DNA of 34,948 nt from Acidobacteriaceae bacterium (GTDB taxonomy: Bacteria; Acidobacteriota; Terriglobia; Bryobacterales; Bryobacteraceae), in assembly GCA_020247055.1 (NCBI GenBank), contig JADCJL010000257.1:1-34948 (forward strand). Reading direction: 5' to 3'. This document shows positions 24,004 through 34,485 of this stretch, one piece after another (the stretch's first letter is position 1; every line of letters begins with the position of its first letter). The notes below the pieces were generated by a model. That model was given only the letters and a program-made list of their open reading frames with translations, had not been told where the DNA came from and did no database searches. The position numbers and the translations under genes were made by a program.

Positions 24004-24031
24004 TTGACAGGTTTGGGTTGGCCACGATAGC
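24004..24031 (+). promoter_or_regulatory. Possible sigma-70-type promoter for the ATP-grasp gene
   Basis: A perfect TTGACA (24004-24009) is followed after 16 bases by GATAGC (24026-24031), which matches only three of six bases of the -10 consensus. It would start transcription near 24038, leaving a leader of about 36 bases before the ATG at 24075. It argues against using the in-frame TTG at 24018 as the start. No experimental support. Confidence 0.35.
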
Positions 24032-24074
24032 GTTAGAGATTCCTTCCCCGTCGAAGAGTTTGCGGCTGATTCTT

Positions 24075-25553
24075 ATGACGATGACTGGCGGGGCTGCTGA
24101 GCGGCCAACATTCCCGGCACCCTTTGCGAACTACGAGCTCGGCGCTCCGTACGATGAGATGTTTCACGCGTCCGGTTTGTCGCGGGAGCACTACCGGGAG
24201 ATCTACGATTTTCTGCAGCAGCTGCCGGCCGAGGAGCTGCGGCTGCACAAGCAGGCGGCCGACCAGACATTTCTGCACCAGGGAATTACGTTTACGGTGT
24301 ACGGCCGGGACGAGGGGACCGAGCGGATTATTCCGCATGACCTGCTGCCACGGATCATTACGGCGGGGGAGTGGGGGAAGGTGGAGGCGGGTTTAGAGCA
24401 GCGGATTCACGCGCTGAACCTGTTTTTGAGAGACATCTATCACGAAGGGCGGATTTTGGCGGACGGGGTGGTACCGCGCGAGATTATTTACAGTTGTAAA
24501 CACTTTCGGCGGGAGATGCGCGGGGTGCATGTGCCGAAGGGGAATTACCTGACGGTGGTGGGGACGGACCTGATCCGGCTGCCGGACGGGGAGTTTGTGG
24601 TGCTTGAGGACAATCTGCGGGTGCCGTCGGGGGTGAGCTATATGCTGACTTCGCGGCAGGTGTTGAAGCGGATTTTTCCGAAGCTATACCAGGCGTGCGG
24701 GGTGCGGCCGATTGATCATTACGGGCAGGCGCTGCTGGCGACGCTGCGGAATTTGAGTCCGGAGGGGCGGCCGGAGCCGACGGTGGTGCTGCTGAGTCCG
24801 GGGGTTTACAACAGCGCGTATTTTGAGCACTCGTTTCTGGCGCGGCAGATGGGGATTCAGCTGGTGGAAGGCCGGGACCTGGTGGTGCACGACAACATTG
24901 TTTATATGCGGACAACGTCGGGCTTGCGGCGGGTGGACGTGATCTACCGGCGGATTGACGATGACTTTATTGATCCGCTGTCGTTCCGCCGGGACTCGAT
25001 TTTAGGGGTGCCGGGGCTGTTCAACGCCTACCGGACGGGGAATGTGACGCTGGCGAACGCGATTGGGACGGGCGTGGCGGATGATAAAGCGCTGTATGCG
25101 TACGTGCCGAAGATCATTAAATACTATCTGGGGCAGGACCCGATTTTGCAGAACGTGGAGACGTTTTTAGCCTCTGATCCCGGGGAGCGGCGGCATATTC
25201 TGGCTAATTTGGACAAGTTTGTGGTGAAGGCGGTGGGGGAGTCGGGCGGGTACGGGATGTTGATCGGGCCGCACTCGACGCGGGAGCAGCAGGAGGAGTT
25301 TGCGCGGAAGATTGAGGAAGATCCGCGGAATTTCATTGCGCAGCCGACGATTTCGCTTTCGACGGCACCGTGTTTTGTCGAGGGGGGGAATATTGAACCG
25401 CGGCACATCGACCTGCGGCCGTACATTTTGTACCAGGGGGAGCGGTCGGTGATTGTGCCGGGGGGATTGACGCGGGTGGCGCTGCGGAAGGGCTCGCTGG
25501 TGGTGAACTCGTCGCAGGGCGGGGGCAGTAAGGACACCTGGGTGTTGAACTGA
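24075..25553 (+). CDS. Circularly permuted ATP-grasp type 2 protein
   Basis: A 492-residue protein of the COG2308 family, predicted ATP-grasp ligases that form peptide-like amide bonds. Characteristic segments are [55 protein letters not shown] and [16 protein letters not shown], plus [18 protein letters not shown] in the ATP-binding part. An in-frame TTG at 24018 would add 19 residues, but these lie inside the putative promoter, so the ATG at 24075 (or 24081) is preferred. Its TGA overlaps the ATG of the alpha-E gene by one base (TGATG). Family members occur with alpha-E and transglutaminase-like genes, exactly as here. Substrates are not established. Confidence 0.92.
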
Positions 25554-26512
25554 TGGATATGCTTTCGCGCGTTTGTGATTCGCTGTACTGGATGTCGCGG
25601 TATCTGGAGCGGGCCGAGCACACCGCCCGGGTTCTGGAGGTGCATTTAGGGCTGCAGCTGGAGTCGTTTTCGGCGGCGAGCCAGCGGCACTGGCAGCGGA
25701 TGACGGCGGCGTTGGGGCTGGAGCCGCCGGAGGGGTTGAGCGAGCAGGAGCTGGTGCAGTGGGTTTGTTTTGATCCGTCGAACCGGCTGTCGATTGTGTC
25801 GAGCATTACGTTTGCGCGGGATAACGCGCGGCAGGTGCGGGAGCACACGAGTTCGGAGATGTGGGAGCAGATCAATATTCTGTTTCACCAGGTGCGGTCG
25901 CAGGCGGTGCAGGAGGAGTGGGAGGGGGAGCCGGCGGATTTCCTGCGCAGCGTCCGGGACGGGGCGCACCTGTTTCAGGGGATTACGGATTCGACGATGA
26001 GCCACGGGCAGGGGTGGCAGTTCATTCAATTGGGCCGTTACATTGAGCGGGTGAACGCGACGGCGCTGCTGCTGGACAACCATTTTCGGCATTTTGAGGC
26101 CGAAGGGGCGGAGACGATCGACTTTGAGGAGCACTCGGAGTGGATTGGTTTGCTGAAATCGCTGACGGCGTTTGAGGCGTATTGCAAAGTGTACACGGCG
26201 GATTTGAAGCCGGCGCGGGTGGCGGAGTTTTTGTTGTTGAGCGGGGAGTTTCCGCACGCGATCCGGTTTGCGGTGGACCAGATTGACACGGTGATGCGGG
26301 CGCTGCCGGAGGCGATGCGTCCGGCGGGGAACAAGCCGGCGCGGCTGGCGGGGAAGCTGCGGGCGATGTTGAGCTACACGCAGATGGACGAGATTGGGGC
26401 GGGCGGCATGCACGAGTTTCTCGAAGACGTGCAGCGGCAGTGCATGCAGATTCATCATGCCGTGCAGCGGGTTTACATTGATTACCCGATCGATGCGGCG
26501 GTTGAGGCCTAG
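25553..26512 (+). CDS. Alpha-E domain protein
   Basis: A 319-residue, all-helical protein of the alpha-E family (COG2307). The typical start is seen as LYWMSRYLERAEHTARVL, followed by a second half with WQFIQLGRYIERVNATALLL, so the tyrosine, arginine and glutamate motif appears twice. It always travels with the permuted ATP-grasp protein in known genomes, and in some it is fused to it, so the two are probably one complex. Start overlaps the stop of the ATP-grasp gene. The biochemical role is unknown. Confidence 0.92.
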   Translation: MDMLSRVCDSLYWMSRYLERAEHTARVLEVHLGLQLESFSAASQRHWQRMTAALGLEPPEGLSEQELVQWVCFDPSNRLSIVSSITFARDNARQVREHTSSEMWEQINILFHQVRSQAVQEEWEGEPADFLRSVRDGAHLFQGITDSTMSHGQGWQFIQLGRYIERVNATALLLDNHFRHFEAEGAETIDFEEHSEWIGLLKSLTAFEAYCKVYTADLKPARVAEFLLLSGEFPHAIRFAVDQIDTVMRALPEAMRPAGNKPARLAGKLRAMLSYTQMDEIGAGGMHEFLEDVQRQCMQIHHAVQRVYIDYPIDAAVEA

Positions 26513-26524
26513 ACGAGTTCCGCC

Positions 26525-27505
26525 ATGTTTTATTCGATTCGACACGTTACGCGATTTCAGTACAGTGCGCCGGTGAGTGAGAGCGTCATGGAGGTGCGGA
26601 TGCGGCCGCGCAGCGAACTGCTGCAGCAGTGCTTGAAGTTTGCGCTGCATGTGACGCCGCGGGCGCGGGTGCAGTTTTACCGGGACTACCTGGGGAACAC
26701 GGTGCATTATTTTGATGTGCCGGGGCAGCATAACCGGTTGGCGGTGATTGCCGAGGCGGTTGTGGAGGTGGAGGCGCCGCGGGATATCCCGGAGGCGGTG
26801 CCGATGGCAGCGTGGGATGCGATTGATGCGATGAGCGCTTCCGGAGAGCTGTACGAGTTTCAGACGGCGAGCTATTTTGCGCAGCCCTCGGCGGAGCTGC
26901 GTAAGCTGATGAAGGAGTTGCGGGTGGACCGGCGGGAAAATCCGCTGACGCTGCTGCGGGGGCTGACCGAGAAGATGCACGGGGCGTTTGAGTATGCCCC
27001 GCAGTCGACGCGGGTGGATTCGCCGATTGATGAGGCGCTGGTGAGCCGGAGGGGCGTTTGCCAGGATTTTTCGCACATCATGATTGCGATGGTGCGGGAA
27101 TTGGGGATTCCGTGCCGGTATGTGAGCGGCTACCTGCATGCGCGGTCGGAGCAGGAGAGCCGGGCGATGACGCTGGCGACCCATTCGTGGGTGGAGGCGT
27201 GGATACCGGGAATTGGAGCGCAGCAGCAGGGTTTGTGGGTGGGGTTTGACCCGACGAGCAACTGTGTGTGCGGCGACCGGCATATCCGGGCGGCGATTGG
27301 CCGGGATTATGCGGATGTCCCGCCGACGAAGGGGGTGTTCAAAGGCAACGCGACGAGTGAGTTAATGGTGGCGGTGCGGGTGCTGCCAACCGATGCGCCG
27401 GCCGATGACCGGGAGGAGTTGGTGCTGGTGCCGGCGGGCAACAGCGGGTCGGCGCCCCTGGCTGATCAGCACTGGGAGCAGATGGAACAGCAACAGCAGC
27501 AGTAA
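26525..27505 (+). CDS. Transglutaminase-like cysteine protease/amidase
   Basis: A 326-residue protein with the bacterial transglutaminase N-terminal beta domain (residues 1-90, MFYSIRHVTRFQYSAPVSES) and a papain-like core. The catalytic triad is visible: Cys179 in RRGVCQDFSH, His220 in THSWVEAW and Asp242 in GFDPTSNC. In the COG2308-COG2307 gene group it is expected to cleave or transfer the peptide bond made by the ligase. The gene follows the alpha-E gene by 12 bases. The C-terminus ends in a glutamine run (EQMEQQQQQ), encoded by CAG/CAA repeats. Confidence 0.92.
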   Translation: MFYSIRHVTRFQYSAPVSESVMEVRMRPRSELLQQCLKFALHVTPRARVQFYRDYLGNTVHYFDVPGQHNRLAVIAEAVVEVEAPRDIPEAVPMAAWDAIDAMSASGELYEFQTASYFAQPSAELRKLMKELRVDRRENPLTLLRGLTEKMHGAFEYAPQSTRVDSPIDEALVSRRGVCQDFSHIMIAMVRELGIPCRYVSGYLHARSEQESRAMTLATHSWVEAWIPGIGAQQQGLWVGFDPTSNCVCGDRHIRAAIGRDYADVPPTKGVFKGNATSELMVAVRVLPTDAPADDREELVLVPAGNSGSAPLADQHWEQMEQQQQQ

Positions 27506-27575: not shown

Positions 27576-28658
27576 ATGGGAATCAACGACTTCCTCAAGA
27601 GCTCCGGCTTAAAAGACTTCGTCAAGAAGCAATTCATTGACGTACTGCAGTACGTGGAGGCGGAGGACGGCATATTGGCCCACCGTTTCCCGATGATGGA
27701 CATGGAGATCCAGAACGGGGCGTCGCTGACCGTTCGGGAGTCGCAGATGGCGGCTTTTGTTAACGAAGGCCGGATGGCGGACATTTTTGGCCCGGGGACT
27801 TATAAGGTTACGACGCAGAATATTCCGCTGCTGACGAACCTGATGAATTGGGACAAGATGTTTGAGAGCCCATTCAAGAGTGACGTGTACTTCTTTTCGA
27901 CGCGGCAGCAGTTGAATCAGAAGTGGGGGACGCCGAACCCGATTACGATCCGGGACCGGGAGTTTGGGGCGGTGCGGGTGCGGGGCAACGGCGTTTATGC
28001 CTGGCATCTGGCCGATCCGCGGACGTTTCACCAGAAGGTGAGCGGGACGCGGGAGAGCTACCGGGTGGCGGATCTTGAAGGGCAGTTGCGGGACGTGGTG
28101 ATTGGCCACATGGCGGATGCGTTTGCGCAGAGCCAGATTCCGTTTCTCGACATGATTGCCAACCAGGTGGAGCTCGGGGCGCAGATTCTGAAGGCGCTGC
28201 AGCCTTCCTTCAACGAACTGGGCTTGCAGCTCGATACATTCGTAGTGCGGGAGTTGAGCCTGCCCGAGGAGCTGCAGAAGCGGCTGGACGAGCGGATTTC
28301 GATGAACATGATCGGCGATATGGGCCGGTATACGCAGTTTCAGGTGGCGCAGTCGATTCCGATTGCGGCGGCGAATGAGGGAGGCATTGCGGGGATTGGT
28401 GCGGGGTTGAGCGCGGGATACGGGATGGCGCAGGCGATGACCGGGGCGATGGCGCAGGCGTATCAGCAGCCGCCGATGGCTCCGCCGCCTTCTGTTCCGC
28501 CGCCTTCTGTTCCGCCGCCTTCTGTTCCGCCGATAGGAGCTCCGCCGGCGGCAGCGGCGCCGGGTGGCGAGACGAAGTTTTGTTTCAACTGCGGTACGAA
28601 GATTCCTCGCGCGGCGAAGTTCTGCGGCGAGTGCGGCACGGCGCAGCCTGCGGTATAG
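27576..28658 (+). CDS. SPFH-domain (virion core-like, YdjI-type) protein with zinc ribbon
   Basis: A 360-residue protein. Residues about 20-270 form an SPFH/band-7-like domain of the virion core protein type (EDGILAHRFPMMDMEIQNGA, VRESQMAAFVNEGRMADIFGPGTY). This resembles Bacillus subtilis YdjI, which takes part in membrane recruitment of a PspA protein. Then come a Gly/Ala-rich part, a proline-rich linker with three PPPSV repeats, and a C-terminal zinc ribbon (CFNCGTKI and CGECG). The ATG has AGGTT upstream. It leads an eight-gene run with short gaps and overlaps. No PspA gene is in the window. A scaffold role at the membrane is inferred from the family. Confidence 0.88.
   Translation: MGINDFLKSSGLKDFVKKQFIDVLQYVEAEDGILAHRFPMMDMEIQNGASLTVRESQMAAFVNEGRMADIFGPGTYKVTTQNIPLLTNLMNWDKMFESPFKSDVYFFSTRQQLNQKWGTPNPITIRDREFGAVRVRGNGVYAWHLADPRTFHQKVSGTRESYRVADLEGQLRDVVIGHMADAFAQSQIPFLDMIANQVELGAQILKALQPSFNELGLQLDTFVVRELSLPEELQKRLDERISMNMIGDMGRYTQFQVAQSIPIAAANEGGIAGIGAGLSAGYGMAQAMTGAMAQAYQQPPMAPPPSVPPPSVPPPSVPPIGAPPAAAAPGGETKFCFNCGTKIPRAAKFCGECGTAQPAV
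28485..28529 (+). repeat. Three tandem 15-base repeats coding PPPSV
   Basis: Three exact copies of CCGCCTTCTGTTCCG lie in the linker of the SPFH gene and code a proline-rich hinge between its membrane domain and zinc ribbon. Exact identity suggests recent expansion by slippage; copy number may vary among strains. Confidence 0.9.
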
Positions 28659-28667
28659 TTTTGGGCT

Positions 28668-29024
28668 ATGGCAACGGCGGGGTGCGAATGGGTGATCGAG
28701 GCGCTGGGCTGCGAGGCGGAGCGCCTGAAGGATCCCGTGGCGCTGGCGGGGATGTTCACAGACCTGATTGCCGGTCTGGGGTTGCATCCGGTGGCCGAGA
28801 CGCAGTGGCACCAGTTTCCTGGTCCTGGGGGGATTACGGGGTTATGTCTGCTGGCGGAGTCGCACTTGGCGTGTCACACGTTTCCCGAGTTTGGCAGCCT
28901 TTGTTTAAACGTGTTTTGCTGTAAGCCGCGGCCGGACTGGGATTTCGGGTCGTACCTGCGCGAGGCGTTTTTCGCGCGGGAGGTGCGGGTGCGGCAACTG
29001 GAGAGGCCTTACGGCACGGTATGA
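28668..29024 (+). CDS. speD: Minimal S-adenosylmethionine decarboxylase (SpeD/SpeH type)
   Basis: A 118-residue prokaryotic AdoMet decarboxylase, which cleaves itself to form a pyruvoyl cofactor and makes decarboxylated AdoMet, the aminopropyl donor for polyamines. The key segment ESHLACHTFPEFG matches the ESHxxxHTxPE motif. Ser65 is the expected pyruvoyl precursor, and His70 and Cys85 stand at the spacing of the catalytic His68 and Cys83 of the Thermotoga enzyme, so the protein is probably active. It starts nine bases after the SPFH gene and ends in an ATGA overlap with the next gene. A spermidine-synthase-like partner lies four genes on. Confidence 0.88.
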   Translation: MATAGCEWVIEALGCEAERLKDPVALAGMFTDLIAGLGLHPVAETQWHQFPGPGGITGLCLLAESHLACHTFPEFGSLCLNVFCCKPRPDWDFGSYLREAFFAREVRVRQLERPYGTV

Positions 29025-29665
29025 GTTCGCGGAACGCTATTTGCCCGAATTGCGGGGCGGAGGTACGGTTTCGCTGGTCGGGGGCGGTGCAGACGACCTG
29101 TGAGTACTGCCAGTCGATTCTGGTGCGGAACGATCTGAACCTGGCGCTGGTGGGCAAGGCGGCGGATCTGCCGGTGGACATCTCGCCGATTCAGCTGGGG
29201 ACGGAGGGGATTTTTTCGGGCAAGGCGTTTCAGGTGATTGGACGGATTGTGTACCGCTACGATCTGGGGACGTGGAACGAGTGGCATCTGATGTTTAGCG
29301 ACGGGAGCAACGGGTGGCTGTCGGATGCGCAGGCCGAGTATGCGGTTTCGTTTGCGAACGCGTTTACGAGTGCGCCGCCGGCGCCGGGCGAACTGGCGCG
29401 GGGGATGCAGATGGAGCAGCATCGGGTGCTGTTGACGCTCACGGTGATTACCGAGGCGCTTTACGAGACGACCGAGGGCGAGCTGCCATTTACCTCCTAC
29501 GACAAAGAGAAGTGCCGTTTTGCCGATTTCCGCACACACGACGGGCGCTTTGCAACGGTGGACTATAGCGAAGAGCCGCCGCTGTTGTTTCTAGGGCAGT
29601 TTGTGGACTTTGGCAGTTTGCGGATGAAGAACCTGAAAGAGTTTGAAGGGTGGCCAACGGTATGA
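29021..29665 (+). CDS. DUF4178 protein with N-terminal zinc ribbon
   Basis: A 214-residue protein. An N-terminal zinc ribbon uses Cys8, Cys11, Cys27 and Cys30 (ICPNCGAE and TTCEYCQS). A beta-rich DUF4178-type domain follows, with FSGKAFQVIGRIVYRYDLGTWNEW continuing to LMFSDGSNGWLSDAQ. No membrane segment is seen. The function of DUF4178 is unknown. Start and end both overlap neighbouring genes by ATGA, so it is translated with SpeD and the second DUF4178 gene. Confidence 0.85.
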   Translation: MSSRNAICPNCGAEVRFRWSGAVQTTCEYCQSILVRNDLNLALVGKAADLPVDISPIQLGTEGIFSGKAFQVIGRIVYRYDLGTWNEWHLMFSDGSNGWLSDAQAEYAVSFANAFTSAPPAPGELARGMQMEQHRVLLTLTVITEALYETTEGELPFTSYDKEKCRFADFRTHDGRFATVDYSEEPPLLFLGQFVDFGSLRMKNLKEFEGWPTV

Positions 29666-30999
29666 ACCCGATGGGTTCCCGGAAGGGGGTTGTTCCGAAG
29701 GCGAAGGCGCTGAACTGCCCGAACTGCGGGTCGCAGATTCAACTGCGGGCGCTGGGAGCGGCGGCGAGCGTGATCTGCAATTACTGCAGCAGCACGATTG
29801 ACGCGAGTCATCCGCAGTTGCGGGTGATTGCGCAGTGGCAAGCGGCGATGACGGTGGAGCCGGTGATTCCGCTGGGATCGCGGGGGAAGCTGCGGGGCGT
29901 ACTGTGGGAGGCGATTGGTTTTCAGCAGCGGGGCATCAACGTCGACGGCACGAATTACTTCTGGCGCGAGTATGTGCTGTGGAATCCTTATCACGGTTTC
30001 CGGTACCTAAGTGAGTACAACAACCATTGGAACTTTGTGACGCCGCTGCGGACACTGCCGGCGGCGACGACCGTGCATGCGTTGCCGGGGATGCAGCTGG
30101 GCAAGGAGAGGTACCGGCACTTTCAAACCGCGCGGGCCTACACGTGGTTTGTGATTGGCGAGTTTCCGTGGATGGTGCAGGTGGGTGAGGCGGTAGACGC
30201 GGCCGACTATGTGGCGCCACCGAAGATGCTTTCCTCGGAGACGACGGAAAACGAGGTGACCTGGAGCGAGAGTGAGTATCTGACGGGGGCGGAGATTTGG
30301 CAGGCGTTCGGGCTGAAGACGCCGTGCCCACCGCCGGCCGGGGTGTTCGCCAATCAGCCTTCGCCGTACGCCGGCAGGGTGGCGGCGATGTGGAAGTCCT
30401 ACGGTCTCGTGTGCGCGGGGCTGATGGCGTTGATGATCTTTTTCGCGGTGACCGCGCAGCGGCAGAAGGCGCTGGACCAGAAGTTTGTTGTGAACGCGGG
30501 GCAAGCGACGGGCGAGAAGAGCTTTGTGACCGAGGTGTTCCCGCTCGACGGCAAGAGCGGGAATGTCGAGGTGAGTGTCAATGCGGACGTGGCGAACCGG
30601 TGGGTTTTCCTCAGTATGGCGTTGATCAACGAGGAGACGGGGCAGGCCTACGACTTCGGGCAGGAGGTGAGCTACTACTCGGGCCGGGACTCGGACGGGG
30701 ACTGGAGCGAGGGGAGCCGGAGCGAGGAGGTGCTGCTGCCGGGGATTCCGGGCGGGCGGTACTATCTGCGGGTGGAGCCGGAGACGGATGCGGCGCTGGC
30801 GGGCCCGATTCCGGTGCGGATTCAGGTGGTGCGCGGGGTGCCGTACTATCTGCGGTATTTTTTGGGGATGCTGTTGGTTTTGATTCCGCCGGTATGGGTG
30901 AGCATTCGCGCGTCGGTGTTTGAGGCCAAGCGTTGGAGCGAGAGCGACTACGGGGGAGGGAGTAGCTCGAGTGAGGAGGAGGAGAAGGAGGAGGAGTGA
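29662..30999 (+). CDS. Membrane-bound DUF4178 protein with zinc ribbon and acidic tail
   Basis: A 445-residue protein. An N-terminal zinc ribbon has Cys19, Cys22, Cys39 and Cys42 (NCPNCGSQ and ICNYCSST). A DUF4178-like domain contains LRGVLWEAIGFQQRG and FYWREYVLWNP-like text (NYFWREYVLWNPYHGF). A membrane helix (LVCAGLMALMIFFAVTA), a beta-rich region probably outside the membrane (VNAGQATGEKSFVTEVFPL), and a second helix (FLGMLLVLIPPVWVSI) follow. The C-terminus is SSSSEEEEKEEE, coded by a GAG/GGA repeat. A GTG four codons upstream is in frame, but the ATG at 29662 forms an ATGA overlap with the upstream stop and is preferred. It is a longer relative of the previous gene, so the pair may act together. 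Confidence 0.85.
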   Translation: MNPMGSRKGVVPKAKALNCPNCGSQIQLRALGAAASVICNYCSSTIDASHPQLRVIAQWQAAMTVEPVIPLGSRGKLRGVLWEAIGFQQRGINVDGTNYFWREYVLWNPYHGFRYLSEYNNHWNFVTPLRTLPAATTVHALPGMQLGKERYRHFQTARAYTWFVIGEFPWMVQVGEAVDAADYVAPPKMLSSETTENEVTWSESEYLTGAEIWQAFGLKTPCPPPAGVFANQPSPYAGRVAAMWKSYGLVCAGLMALMIFFAVTAQRQKALDQKFVVNAGQATGEKSFVTEVFPLDGKSGNVEVSVNADVANRWVFLSMALINEETGQAYDFGQEVSYYSGRDSDGDWSEGSRSEEVLLPGIPGGRYYLRVEPETDAALAGPIPVRIQVVRGVPYYLRYFLGMLLVLIPPVWVSIRASVFEAKRWSESDYGGGSSSSEEEEKEEE

Positions 31000-31025
31000 G
31001 GAGGAGGAGTGAGGAGTGAGGAGTG
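30971..31025 (+). repeat. Purine repeat (GAGGAG/GTGAG) spanning a stop codon and several ribosome-binding sites
   Basis: An almost pure purine tract made of GGAGGA and GAGGAGTGAG units. It codes the acidic tail of the DUF4178 protein, contains its TGA stop at 30997-30999 and continues as several overlapping GGAGG or GAGGAG sites before the ATG at 31026. It looks like a slippage-prone repeat; changes would alter the tail and the spacing of ribosome-binding sites. Confidence 0.85.
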
Positions 31026-31211
31026 ATGGGTAAACTGTACATGATTTATAGCGCACTGGTGGCCGGTGGGCTGGCCGTTTCGAGTATTACCGGATGGTCG
31101 CCGTTTGATCCGTCCGATGAAGTGAAGGGCGTGCCGAAATCCGTGCGCAACAATCCGGGAGCGTATCGCTCCCACTACTCGGGCTATAGTCGATATCTTG
31201 GGGGGAAGTAG
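31026..31211 (+). CDS. 61-residue membrane protein of the DUF4178/DUF350 group
   Basis: A small protein with one hydrophobic helix at residues 5-25 (MIYSALVAGGLAVSSITGW) and a polar, Tyr/Ser-rich C-terminus (SVRNNPGAYRSHYSGYSRY). I do not recognise a named family. The multiple purine-rich ribosome-binding sites before the ATG, the six-base gap to the next gene and the operon context support it as real. The helix near the N-terminus could also be a signal anchor. Confidence 0.75.
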   Translation: MGKLYMIYSALVAGGLAVSSITGWSPFDPSDEVKGVPKSVRNNPGAYRSHYSGYSRYLGGK

Positions 31212-31217
31212 AGAGTC

Positions 31218-31427
31218 ATGGAATTTCGCATTGATCATTTTATGAACGCGGTGGTGTATGCCGCGCTGGGAATTGTGATCTACATGCTGGCGTTTTTCGT
31301 CATCGATAAGGCGACGCCGGGCGAGCTGCGCACGGAGATTTTTGAAAAGCACAACGTGGCGGCGGCGGTGGTGGTGGGCTTTATGATGCTGGGCATCGGC
31401 ATCATCATCGCCGCCGCAGTGCACTAG
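31218..31427 (+). CDS. DUF350-family membrane protein
   Basis: A 69-residue protein with two hydrophobic helices (AVVYAALGIVIYMLAFFVID and AAAVVVGFMMLGIGIIIAAA) separated by a short polar loop with KATPGELRTEIFEKHN. This is one DUF350 unit; many family members have two. DUF350 proteins are found near PspA, SPFH and polyamine-related genes. Function unknown. Twelve bases separate it from the aminopropyltransferase start. Confidence 0.87.
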   Translation: MEFRIDHFMNAVVYAALGIVIYMLAFFVIDKATPGELRTEIFEKHNVAAAVVVGFMMLGIGIIIAAAVH

Positions 31428-31439
31428 TCGCGAGACGGC

Positions 31440-32936
31440 GTGGCGATTGTCCTCTTTATTTCGGTGTTCCTCATTGCGGCCTGCGGGCTGATCTATGAGT
31501 TGATCGCCGGCGCGCTGGCGAGCTATCTGCTGGGGGATAGCATTTTGCAGTTTTCGACCGTGATTGGCAGCTACCTGTTTGCGATGGGGATCGGGAGCTG
31601 GCTATCGCGGTACATTCGGCGCGGACTGGTGACACGGTTCGTGGCGATTGAACTGATGGTGGGGTTGGTGGGCGGCTTCTCTTCGTCGCTGCTGTTTCTG
31701 GCGTTTGCGTATACGGAGGGGTTCCGGTTTTTGCTGTACGCGTTGGTGACGGTGATTGGGGTGCTGGTGGGTTTGGAGATTCCGCTGCTGATGCGGATTC
31801 TGAAGGAGCGGTTCCAGTTCACCGAGCTGGTGGCGAATGTGTTGACGTTCGACTATCTGGGGGCGCTGGGGGCTTCGCTGCTGTTTCCGCTGGTGCTGGT
31901 GCCGCAGTTGGGGATGGTGCGGAGTGCGCTGCTGTTTGGTTTGGTGAACGCGGGGGTGGCGGTGTGGTCGCTGTACCTGTTCCGGGCGCAGATTGGGCCG
32001 GCGCCGCTGCTGCGGGCGGCGGGGGTGGTGGTGATTGTTCTGCTGGGGGCGGGGATGGGGTTCGCCGACCGGATTACGGAGACGGCGGAGAATAGTATTT
32101 ATGCCGATGAGGTGATTTTTTCGCGGACGACGCGGTATCAGCGGATCGTTTTGACGAAGTGGAAGGACGATGTGCGGCTGTTTTTGAGCTCGCATCTGCA
32201 GTTTTCTTCGCGGGATGAGTATCGTTATCACGAGGCGCTGGTGCATCCGGGGTTGGCCGCGCTGGGGGCGGCGCGGCGGGTGCTGGTGTTGGGCGGGGGG
32301 GACGGGTTGGCGGTTCGGGAGGTGTTGAAGTATCCGGGGGTGGAGAGCGTGACGCTGGTGGATCTGGATCCGGAGATGACGGGATTGTTTACGCACCATC
32401 CGCTGCTGCGGGAGATGAACGGGCGGTCGCTGGTAGACGGGCGGGTGAAGGTGATCAACGCCGATGCGTTTGTGTGGCTGGACGGGAATCAGGAGGTTTA
32501 TGACTTCGTGATCATCGATTTCCCGGATCCGACGAATTTTTCGCTGGGGAAGCTGTACACGACGGCGTTTTACCGGCTGTTGAAGCGGCATGTGGCGCGG
32601 GAGGGGCTGGTGGTGGTGCAGTCGACGAGTCCCCTGTTTGCGCGGCAGAGCTACTGGTCGATTGTGCATACGCTGCGCCAGGCGGGGTTGGGGACGTGGC
32701 CGTACCATGTGTACGTGCCAAGTTTTGGGGAATGGGGGTTTGTGCTGGCGGGCCCGGGGGGGTACCGGATGCCGGAGCGACTGCCGGAGGGGCTGCGGTT
32801 TCTGGACCGGGGAACGTTGGGACAGCTGTTTGTGTTTCCGCAGGATATGGCGGAGGTGGCGGCGGAGCCGAACCGGCTGAACGACCAGGCGCTGGTGCGG
32901 TACTACGAGAAGGAGTGGCGGGAGATTGCGCACTAG
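31440..32936 (+). CDS. Membrane-embedded spermidine-synthase-like aminopropyltransferase
   Basis: A 498-residue protein starting at GTG. The first 210 residues hold about seven membrane helices (VLFISVFLIAACGLIYELIA at the start). The C-terminal part is a spermidine-synthase-type methyltransferase-like fold with VLVLGGGDGLAVREVLKYPG (cofactor binding), VTLVDLDPEM, INADAFVWL and IIDFPDP, whose two Asp match the DxxD active-site pair of aminopropyltransferases. It would transfer the aminopropyl group of decarboxylated AdoMet, made by the SpeD four genes upstream, to an amine. Its membrane domain suggests a membrane-linked acceptor or a transport function (inference). Some relatives may be methyltransferases. 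The stop overlaps the start of the FAD gene by 11 bases. Confidence 0.9.
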   Translation: MAIVLFISVFLIAACGLIYELIAGALASYLLGDSILQFSTVIGSYLFAMGIGSWLSRYIRRGLVTRFVAIELMVGLVGGFSSSLLFLAFAYTEGFRFLLYALVTVIGVLVGLEIPLLMRILKERFQFTELVANVLTFDYLGALGASLLFPLVLVPQLGMVRSALLFGLVNAGVAVWSLYLFRAQIGPAPLLRAAGVVVIVLLGAGMGFADRITETAENSIYADEVIFSRTTRYQRIVLTKWKDDVRLFLSSHLQFSSRDEYRYHEALVHPGLAALGAARRVLVLGGGDGLAVREVLKYPGVESVTLVDLDPEMTGLFTHHPLLREMNGRSLVDGRVKVINADAFVWLDGNQEVYDFVIIDFPDPTNFSLGKLYTTAFYRLLKRHVAREGLVVVQSTSPLFARQSYWSIVHTLRQAGLGTWPYHVYVPSFGEWGFVLAGPGGYRMPERLPEGLRFLDRGTLGQLFVFPQDMAEVAAEPNRLNDQALVRYYEKEWREIAH

Positions 32937-34485
32937 GCGGGAGTTGGTGGCGGGATTGGTGGGGGCGCCGGCGCTGGTGGGATTGGAGCGCAAGACGGAG
33001 CGGCCGATTGCGGGCGGGTTTGTGTTTGAGTCGCAGGAGCGGGGGCACCGGATCCGGGACAAGGCGGGGTATGGGCGGGCGGCGGAGACGCGGCGGGTGC
33101 CGGTGGTGATTGTGGGGGGGGGGATGGCGGGGTTGTGCGCGGCGTGGTGGTTGGAGCGGTCGGGGTTTCGGGATTTCGTGCTGTTGGAGATGGAGGCGTC
33201 GGCGGGGGGGAACTCGCGATTCGGGGAGAATGCGGTGAGTGCTTATCCGTGGGGAGCGCACTATATTCCGGTGCCGAATACGGAGTCGGTGCTGGTGCGG
33301 GAGATTTTAACGGAATTTGGGGCGTTCGTTGACGGCCAGTGGGAGGAGCGGTTTTTATGCCATTCGCCGCAGGAGCGATTGTTTATTCACGGCCGGTGGC
33401 AGGAGAGAATCGAGCCGGAGGTGGGGGCGACGCGGGCCGACCACGATGAGTACCGGCGATTTACCGAGCGGGTGGCGGAGTTTCGGGCGACGGGCGCGTT
33501 TACGATTCCAATGGCGTTGGGGGAGGGGAAGTTTGGCGGACGGCTGGCGGAGTTGGACCGGATGAGCTTTGCGGCGTGGCTGGAGCGGGAGGGGTTTCGG
33601 TCCACCTATTTGCGCTGGTTCTGCGATTATTCGACGCGGGATGACTACGGGGCGGGGGGGGGGGAGACATCGGCGTGGGCGGGATTACACTATTTTGCGG
33701 CGCGGGAACATGAGGAGAAGGGGCCGCTGACGTGGCCGGAGGGGAACGGGTGGCTGCTGCGGAAGTTGACGGGGAAGTTAGGACGATACATCCGGACCGG
33801 CCAGATGGTGCGCCGGGTGGGGCGGGAGGGGACGGGTTGGCGGGTAGAGGCGGACGGGGGGGCTTGGTTGGCCGAAGCGGTGATCTTCGCGGCGCCAACG
33901 TACTTGGCACCGCACCTGATTGAGGGTTTTGCACCGCTGCCTTCCGTGCAGTATTCGCCGTGGGTGGTGTCGAATCTGACGCTGGCGGGAGTTCCCGACG
34001 GGGCGGGGGAGGTGGCTTGGGATAACGTGATCTACGGGTCGCCGAGTTTGGGGTACGTGTCGGCCACGCATCAGAGCTTGCGGACGCGGATCGAGCGGAC
34101 GGTGTGGACACATTACTGGGCGTTGGGAGGGGAGGATCCGCGTCGGGTGCGGCAGAATCTGCTGGCGAGTGGATGGGAGCAGTGGCGGGATCGGGTGTTG
34201 GGGGATCTACGGCGGGCGCATCCGCGGATTGGAGAATGGGTGGAGCGGGTAGACATCTATCGAAATGGGCATGCCATGTGCCGGCCGGGGGTGGGGATGC
34301 GCCGGAGTGACGACTTGCGCCGCCTGCGTGAAGGGTTGCCCGGGCTGCAGTTCGCCCATGCGGACCTGAGCGGGTTTTCCATTTTTGAAGAGGCGCAGTA
34401 TTGGGGAGTGCGGGCGGCGAAGCAGACTCTCGGAAGAATCGGGGGCGGGGAAAAGAAAGCTGATCGAGCGAATCAAAGAAATTGA
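32926..34485 (+). CDS. FAD-dependent amine-oxidase-like protein with Tat-type signal
   Basis: A 519-residue protein. The N-terminus MRTRRELVAGLVGAPALVGL, from a TTG start, looks like a twin-arginine signal, so export is likely. The FAD-binding motif is VIVGGGMAGLCAAWWLE (residues 62-78), followed by LLEMEASAGGNSRF and PWGAHYIPVP, as in flavin amine oxidases and phytoene-desaturase-like enzymes. The C-terminal SIFEEAQYWGVRAAKQTL is the second FAD contact region. The TTG lies inside the end of the aminopropyltransferase gene with AAGGAG ten bases before it. In this context, oxidation of a polyamine or of an aminopropyl-modified product is plausible but unproven. It is the last gene of the run. 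Confidence 0.85.
   Translation: MRTRRELVAGLVGAPALVGLERKTERPIAGGFVFESQERGHRIRDKAGYGRAAETRRVPVVIVGGGMAGLCAAWWLERSGFRDFVLLEMEASAGGNSRFGENAVSAYPWGAHYIPVPNTESVLVREILTEFGAFVDGQWEERFLCHSPQERLFIHGRWQERIEPEVGATRADHDEYRRFTERVAEFRATGAFTIPMALGEGKFGGRLAELDRMSFAAWLEREGFRSTYLRWFCDYSTRDDYGAGGGETSAWAGLHYFAAREHEEKGPLTWPEGNGWLLRKLTGKLGRYIRTGQMVRRVGREGTGWRVEADGGAWLAEAVIFAAPTYLAPHLIEGFAPLPSVQYSPWVVSNLTLAGVPDGAGEVAWDNVIYGSPSLGYVSATHQSLRTRIERTVWTHYWALGGEDPRRVRQNLLASGWEQWRDRVLGDLRRAHPRIGEWVERVDIYRNGHAMCRPGVGMRRSDDLRRLREGLPGLQFAHADLSGFSIFEEAQYWGVRAAKQTLGRIGGGEKKADRANQRN

Follow-up and report, generated by a model that had tools for sequence, protein, structure and literature searches.

The window analysed here, a 34,948-nucleotide stretch of DNA from an Acidobacteriaceae bacterium (contig JADCJL010000257.1), carries at positions 27576-34485 a run of eight intact plus-strand open reading frames (ORFs), which include a membrane-bound aminopropyltransferase of the spermidine synthase type (SpeE) and a small membrane peptide with a C-terminal lysine. 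We propose, with a probability of about 0.45, that the run encodes a protein-tail aminopropylation system and that the tail lysine of the small peptide (31023-31211) is its candidate aminopropyl acceptor, a reading drawn from sequence comparison. The small peptide, which we take to be the key part, was passed over in the preliminary description of this DNA. The general idea of that description, that something besides putrescine may be aminopropylated, is not new and stands in the available text of Ravi et al. 2024 (PMC11237479). The two genes on which the proposal centres are as follows.

31023-31211, plus strand: small membrane peptide, 61-62 amino acids, C-terminal lysine (Lys codon 31206-31208, stop codon 31209-31211)
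31440-32936, plus strand: membrane SpeE, whole gene, 498 amino acids (Pfam Spermine_synth)
31440-32069, plus strand: predicted domain of SpeE with seven transmembrane helices (7-TM domain), amino acids 1-210 (AlphaFold helices; sequence conservation)
32070-32936, plus strand: aminopropyltransferase domain of SpeE, amino acids 211-498 (DxxD motif, D360/D363, intact)

The small peptide gave no family match in Pfam or NCBIfam; an alternative start, the ATG at 31026, would yield 61 amino acids instead of 62.

The C-terminal lysine in membrane SpeE loci

One scan of species genomes yielded 592 stretches, in which at least 589 SpeE relatives were confirmed. The best 80 of these relatives, 20 stretches from the phylum of the window genome and the window itself formed a first set of 101 loci, which was searched with profiles built from the window genes. 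For a second set, SpeE alone served as the query in the phylum of Pedobacter rhodius (G149), which we take to be Bacteroidota, and in the class to which a gammaproteobacterial record belongs. Of the 25 new places that this gave, 20 were used; two places in G533 and those in G557, G429 and G392 were left out. Seven of 13 plasmid hits were taken; the three from Burkholderia were deliberately passed over, and H6, H9 and H12 were omitted as their genera were already represented. Actinobacteria, and lysine tails in genomes lacking membrane SpeE, lay outside the sampling.

All 65 small-peptide homologues found by profile in the first set ended in lysine, preceded by glycine in 51 and by histidine in 14, a uniformity that could by itself stem from the profile used. 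Their 55 different terminal decapeptides all had lysine as the last residue and either glycine (41) or histidine (14) as the penultimate one; at the positions before these two, one residue never occurred in more than 30 of the 55. Nine loci missed by the profile, including two from Leptospiraceae and one each from an alphaproteobacterium, a verrucomicrobium and Pedobacter, held in or near the usual place a peptide of 45-57 amino acids with a hydrophobic stretch and an HK end. These nine were picked as ORFs of at most 150 amino acids with a lysine end, a hydrophobic stretch and the usual place, and were thus selected for lysine; similarity was weak in L065, L077 and L080 (E 0.001 to 0.012) and none was listed for the other six.

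In nine betaproteobacterial loci where no small peptide was found, among them Delftia, Polaromonas, Variovorax, Curvibacter and Giesbergeria records, the DUF4178 protein itself ended in GGGGHK, GGSHK or a similar sequence after a single hydrophobic segment. Elsewhere DUF4178 proteins mostly end in acidic residues or tryptophan. In one further locus (L131) the tail belonged to a lipoprotein-like protein ending in SSGK. The recount therefore gave a GK- or HK-ended tail in 84 of the 101 first-set loci (65 + 9 + 9 + L131). Tail counts were taken from locus maps and this recount; an automatic tally gave 79 of 121, owing to its hydropathy threshold and ORF-overlap filter.

No tail was present in the stretch for the remaining 17 loci (L063, L068, L072, L075, L076, L079, L081, L085, L087, L088, L092, L093, L094, L103, L108, L109 and L121), in which SpeE was unlinked or close to a contig end. 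For nine of them (L075, L076, L081, L087, L088, L092, L103, L109 and L121) a tail was found elsewhere in the genome. One of these, L121 (G077, contig C53), carries a pair of membrane SpeE genes some 6 kb from each other, on opposite strands, with a FAD (flavin adenine dinucleotide) protein gene adjoining one of them.

In the second set, a lysine-ended membrane protein was located near SpeE in 16 of the 20 loci, and in a 17th (L189, seen as L200) about 3 kb away. Four of these proteins were small peptides (L170, L171, L173 and L182) and two were DUF4178 proteins (L181, and L172 from Bacteroidota, separate from the betaproteobacterial cases). The other ten loci (L176-L180, L183-L185, L187 and L188) encoded proteins of 193 to 367 amino acids with tails such as RSRSGGFGK, and all ten showed, by a permissive pattern, a lipobox-like motif near the N-terminus; if they are lipoproteins, as these motifs suggest, their tails lie outside the cytoplasm. 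They may correspond to the "novel lipoprotein" in the available text of Ravi et al. 2024 (PMC11237479). The exceptions in the set were L186, whose tail protein lies on another contig, and L174 and L175, whose tails end in YGG beside an ATP-grasp protein.

A genome-wide search for DUF350 in 14 genomes without a tail in the neighbourhood of SpeE revealed a lysine-ended protein beside DUF350 in 11, for instance small peptides ending in YHK, SHK or WHK together with SPFH and DUF4178 genes. The other three were L063, where the DUF350 gene is at a contig edge, L094, and L174 (G315), which has no DUF350 match and is of the GG type. In the phylum of the window genome, a lysine tail was found in all 26 sampled genomes with SpeE (these overlap the first set). 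Six of the seven plasmid loci ended in lysine, one of them as VK (L248). L250, on an Alteromonas mediterranea plasmid, encodes SpeE, SpeD, a protein of the toxic-anion-resistance type, DUF4178, a 510-amino-acid lipoprotein-like protein ending in SSGK, and DUF350. The seventh, L251 on a plasmid of Rhodovulum sp. MB263, has no tail; it is a remnant, with a truncated membrane SpeE (41% of the query) and no intact module genes around it.

Of 413 proteins from the remaining module families (SPFH, SpeD, DUF350, SpeE and FAD), a single one ended in GK or HK. Among 784 background ORFs of at least 150 amino acids there were 13 GK/HK ends and 55 lysine ends, counts which may include tail lipoproteins themselves. 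The lysine tail changes its scaffold, being carried by a small transmembrane peptide, a DUF4178 protein or a lipoprotein-like protein, which are mutually unrelated.

Glycine- or serine-ended tails beside ATP-grasp enzymes

The L174 and L175 loci each encode, beside SpeE, a glutathionylspermidine-synthetase-like ATP-grasp protein, SpeD and a protein ending in STRSYGG. The ATP-grasp protein of L174 matched GSP_synth with 273.5 bits, and that of L175 looks like a close relative. In E. coli, YgiC and YjfC carry the RefSeq label 'peptide--spermidine ligase'; YgiC adjoins YgiB, which has a lipobox and ends in MGG, and YjfC adjoins YjfM, which ends in WGG. These pairs resemble the module in that a lipoprotein-like partner with a tail rich in serine, arginine and glycine stands beside a polyamine-attaching enzyme, and the E. 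coli yjf run further resembles module loci in having DUF350 and a PspA family protein. They differ in that the enzymes are ATP-grasp proteins, for which a carboxylate is the expected target, and in that the partner tails end in MGG or WGG and not in lysine.

In the phylum to which the gammaproteobacterial record G152 belongs, 20 of 120 genomes had PF03738 matches, 23 in all. Sixteen loci with an ATP-grasp protein of ligase size were compared, and a tail was found in 13: ten ended in GG, two in GS, one in SS and none in lysine. Since the tails were recognised by similarity to YgiB or YjfM (nine) or by place and composition (L219, L223, L225 and L226), the number of GG ends is subject to bias, and the lack of lysine less so. 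A neighbouring tail was not found in L213, L214 and L217. Nor was such a neighbour found, within 4-kb loci, for the six PF03738 proteins of 629-646 amino acids (L227-L232), which we take to be bifunctional glutathionylspermidine enzymes.

An ATP-grasp ligase requires a carboxylate on its substrate, SpeE an amine. In each case the end of the tail fits the neighbouring enzyme, lysine with SpeE and glycine or serine with ATP-grasp, and this argues by association that the tail is the substrate; it is the strongest argument for the proposal.

The gene run, its conservation and its genome

The remaining genes of the run are the following.

27576-28658, plus strand: SPFH (Band_7_1) protein with a C-terminal zinc ribbon, 360 amino acids (Pfam Band_7_1, 245.7 bits)
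28668-29024, plus strand: SpeD-like S-adenosylmethionine (AdoMet) decarboxylase, 118 amino acids (Pfam AdoMet_dc, 84.5 bits against a cut-off of 25)
29021-29665, plus strand: DUF4178 protein 1, 214 amino acids, cysteine-rich zinc-ribbon-like N-terminus (Pfam DUF4178, 54.4 bits)
29650-30999, plus strand: DUF4178 protein 2, 449 amino acids (Pfam DUF4178, 66.3 bits)
31218-31427, plus strand: short DUF350 membrane protein, 69 amino acids, two hydrophobic stretches (Pfam DUF350, 55.4 bits)
32926-34485, plus strand: FAD amine-oxidase-like protein, 519 amino acids, Tat-like N-terminus (Pfam Amino_oxidase, 36.8 bits against a cut-off of 19.8)

The ORF listing agreed with the preliminary description: eight genes on the plus strand, closely spaced and overlapping three times. 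The overlaps measure 4, 16 and 11 bases and the four gaps 6, 9, 12 and 23 bases. Pfam families over their cut-offs were Band_7_1, AdoMet_dc, DUF4178 (twice), DUF350, Spermine_synth and Amino_oxidase; the zinc ribbon of the SPFH protein scored slightly under its cut-off (24.3 against 25), and zinc-ribbon models matched DUF4178 protein 1 only below cut-off. DUF4178 protein 2 consists of the DUF4178 domain, a transmembrane segment, a stretch of about 130 amino acids, a second transmembrane segment and an acidic C-terminus, with hydropathy segments at 251 and 401. The short DUF350 proteins of the window and of other loci end right after the second hydrophobic stretch, in ..AAAVH or ..AAAIHG-like sequences, and the C-terminal residue was histidine or glycine in 66 of the 76 counted.

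The product of 28668-29024 contains an ESH motif, presumably the site of self-cleavage. It missed the cut-off of the NCBIfam equivalog TIGR03330 (67.9 against 75.65 bits), and is therefore named SpeD-like and not a proven AdoMet decarboxylase; neofunctionalised SpeD proteins exist, according to the available text of PMC10407285. That it acts as an ornithine or arginine decarboxylase is possible, but its SpeE partner should need decarboxylated AdoMet (dcAdoMet), and no second SpeD was found in the genome.

The label of a spermidine-synthase-type membrane protein was borne out for SpeE, which scored 693.3 bits with the NCBIfam model NF002956 (PRK03612, membrane polyamine aminopropyltransferase; cut-off 472). 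The predicted structure places an aminopropyltransferase fold, with its DxxD motif, behind seven predicted transmembrane helices (residues 2-31, 34-58, 63-79 with 81-91, 95-122, 127-157, 159-180 and 189-207), and sequence conservation marks four acidic residues in the 7-TM domain, E20, E71, E113 and D138. The VIA-align structure comparison covered mainly the SpeE domain, and its lack of a 7-TM match is uninformative about the 7-TM fold. PADLOC matches in the run were limited to SpeE with mad2 (52.5 bits, residues 273-404) and a weak match of the FAD protein to a desaturase model. The FAD protein begins with MRTRRELVAGLVGAPALVG, and a Tat-like (twin-arginine translocation) start, already remarked on in the preliminary description, was present in 32 of 39 readable N-termini of this family.

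Profile counts for the first set (n = 101) were SPFH 48, SpeD 57, DUF4178 83, small peptide 65, SpeE 101 and FAD 83; the DUF350 count, 101 of 101, is inflated by profile hits to portions of other ORFs, L063 being an example. The order SPFH, SpeD, DUF4178, DUF4178, small peptide, DUF350, SpeE, FAD was repeated in Acidobacteria and Gemmatimonadetes records. Two Leptospiraceae loci kept the order of the run without SPFH and SpeD, and several proteobacterial and verrucomicrobial loci had SpeD after FAD. Because the core order recurs across phyla, the arrangement is not due to chance; it is not confined to one genome, and the preliminary description had named conserved order in distant phyla as support for a functional unit. 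Among 149 genomes of the same phylum, DUF4178 and membrane SpeE (at least 327 bits, the next genome scoring 119.6) were found in the same 26. Among 198 genomes of the phylum of P. rhodius, the seven with DUF4178 were all within the 12 with SpeE.

The genome of the window (6.56 Mb, 358 contigs, 97.7% complete) gave a single AdoMet_dc match and a single membrane SpeE match, both within the run. Its three PF02784 decarboxylase matches were all on other contigs and comprised the biosynthetic arginine decarboxylase SpeA (893 bits), a diaminopimelate decarboxylase (503 bits) and one match below the shown cut-offs. Arginine-derived polyamine chemistry therefore probably takes place in this cell away from the run. 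The preliminary description had counted against itself a SpeD partner lying elsewhere with arginine-derived polyamine genes; SpeA does lie on another contig, but a second SpeD was not found.

Seventy bases upstream of the SPFH gene, on the same strand, are genes for a presumed ATP-grasp-like protein, an Alpha-E protein (290.9 bits) and a transglutaminase-like protein (24018-27505). This trio was considered as part of the module; it is a neighbour instead, since it recurs together upstream in only 1 of the 100 other SpeE loci (L032), 73 of which extend 7.5 kb or more beyond SpeE on the upstream side, far enough to reveal it.

The run itself is a known, uncharacterised kind of module. Clusters of AdoMet decarboxylase, a fusion of a spermidine synthase with an MFS-type membrane domain, and DUF350 were reportedly described by Li et al. 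in 2019 (Biochem J), who are said to have proposed an acceptor other than putrescine. Those clusters share the enzymes and DUF350 with the window and reportedly left the acceptor open; the lysine-ended partner is added by the present analysis. The available text of Ravi et al. 2024 (PMC11237479), which cites Li et al. 2019, describes operons beside PspA with 7TM-fused SpeE, DUF350, a lipoprotein and DUF4178, and suggests that PspA systems monitor polyamines or the aminopropylation of other substrates. The window has 7TM-SpeE, DUF350, DUF4178 and a membrane partner in common with the PspA-CesT/band-7 operons of that text (PMC11237479), and differs in having SPFH with a zinc ribbon, a FAD oxidase and a transmembrane peptide in place of the lipoprotein. 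None of the eight genes of the run matched PspA or CesT in Pfam. The available text of Ravi et al. 2024 (PMC11237479), figures and supplements aside, does not mention a C-terminal lysine. In the open-licence literature, supplements excluded, no paper was found on aminopropyllysine or on an aminopropyltransferase combined with a C-terminal lysine; as evidence of novelty this is weak. No printed account was found of the lysine-ended partner, of its shifts from scaffold to scaffold or of the replacement of lysine by Gly-Gly where the enzyme differs.

Proposed mechanism and alternative explanations

We infer each chemical step of the scheme as follows. SpeD, judged by its family, would make dcAdoMet, and the membrane-anchored SpeE domain would move the aminopropyl group onto the small peptide, at the side-chain amine of its C-terminal lysine. 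The -(CH2)4-NH2 group of lysine is similar to putrescine, on which SpeE usually acts, so the reaction would leave a flexible tail ending in Ne-(3-aminopropyl)lysine, a spermidine-like structure. Since the equivalent proteins of other loci look like lipoproteins, this tail probably lies on the outer side. The SpeE domain, judged by charges, may also be outside, in which case dcAdoMet would have to cross the 7-TM domain with its acidic residues; less would be demanded if the tail received the group before it was exported. In the branch of the window, which has the Tat-like flavoenzyme, this enzyme may trim or oxidise the aminopropyl-lysine, and SPFH, DUF4178 and DUF350 may organise the complex at the membrane.

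A partial parallel is the deoxyhypusine/hypusine of eIF5A, for which deoxyhypusine synthase transfers an aminobutyl group from spermidine to an internal lysine in the cytosol. Both modifications would place an aminoalkyl group from polyamine chemistry on a lysine side chain; the proposed one differs in using an aminopropyl group from dcAdoMet and a C-terminal lysine. A broader version, in which a widespread extracytoplasmic modification would have SpeE, fed with dcAdoMet through its own 7-TM domain, aminopropylate exported lysine tails, and a sister branch put polyamine on Gly-Gly tails through an ATP-grasp ligase, seems to us rather improbable as a whole. On that version two unrelated chemistries would each place polyamine on the end of a membrane-anchored tail, with the last residue revealing the enzyme.

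Several points weigh against the proposal. L094, with SpeE, FAD and SpeD on a 6.6-kb contig, yielded no tail, and its genome no DUF350 match; L068, L072, L079, L085, L093 and L108, also without a tail, were not part of the genome-wide follow-up. The charges following the transmembrane segment of the small peptides are mixed, with means of 1.9 K/R and 1.6 D/E over 64 peptides, some of them chosen for their end, so the orientation of these peptides rests mainly on the lipoprotein cases. We know of no precedent for dcAdoMet outside the cytoplasm, nor of a demonstration that the lipoprotein encoded next to E. coli YgiC or YjfC is acted on by that enzyme; the comparison with these enzymes accordingly rests on gene neighbourhood. 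In known systems a C-terminal lysine serves other ends, as in Braun's lipoprotein. Finally, the presence of SpeA in the genome is compatible with a plain polyamine role.

The C-terminal lysine of Braun's lipoprotein is joined to peptidoglycan by an L,D-transpeptidase. The lysine tail could likewise tie the membrane complex to the cell wall or to some partner, as an anchor or a recognition handle, and SpeE would then modify something else, such as a lipid, glycan or small molecule; flexible tails rich in serine, arginine and glycine that end in lysine on lipoprotein-like proteins resemble such tethers. Lysine ends all 65 profile-found small homologues, and an outward position of the tails is suggested by the lipobox-like motifs of the ten long tail proteins. 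This explanation, unlikely but worth keeping in mind, does not account for the lysine end with SpeE as against glycine or serine with ATP-grasp (lysine in 0 of 13), nor for the retention of lysine-tail genes where SpeE is unlinked. Tail aminopropylation also competes with an ordinary if unusual polyamine pathway, in which SpeE would convert putrescine or agmatine into spermidine or a different soluble polyamine, to be oxidised by the flavoenzyme, and the rest would be stress machinery. We hold this improbable: Pfam identified no putrescine-forming gene among the eight, the tight linkage to membrane proteins and DUF4178 does not fit it, and the lysine tails are left unexplained. In the work of Li et al. 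such a fusion reportedly gave no spermidine and did not complement a speE deletion.

PspA (PF04012, 129 to 147 bits) was detected near SpeE in all seven second-set loci tested (L176, L177, L178, L185, L187, L188 and L189), six of which have a lipoprotein tail beside SpeE and the seventh (L189) its tail 3 kb away. Together with the SPFH gene of the run, and with a proposal in the available text of Ravi et al. 2024 (PMC11237479) that comes near to it, this is consistent with a PspA/SPFH membrane-stress module that senses polyamine concentration and in which SpeE is more a sensor or regulator than an enzyme. Such a role appears very unlikely: the catalytic DxxD motif is intact in 20 of 20 second-set SpeE proteins and SpeD is kept in the window genome, which suggests turnover, and the window cluster has no PspA, the genome giving one weak match (36.9 bits) on another contig (C16).

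Membrane SpeE fusions occur in many genomes and have, to our knowledge, no agreed substrate. If the proposal is correct, aminopropylation of the tail would be a post-translational modification of a new kind at the envelope of the cell, and DUF4178, DUF350 and the tail lipoproteins would gain a role. The lysine at a fixed position on three unrelated scaffolds is a directly testable substrate candidate for membrane SpeE.

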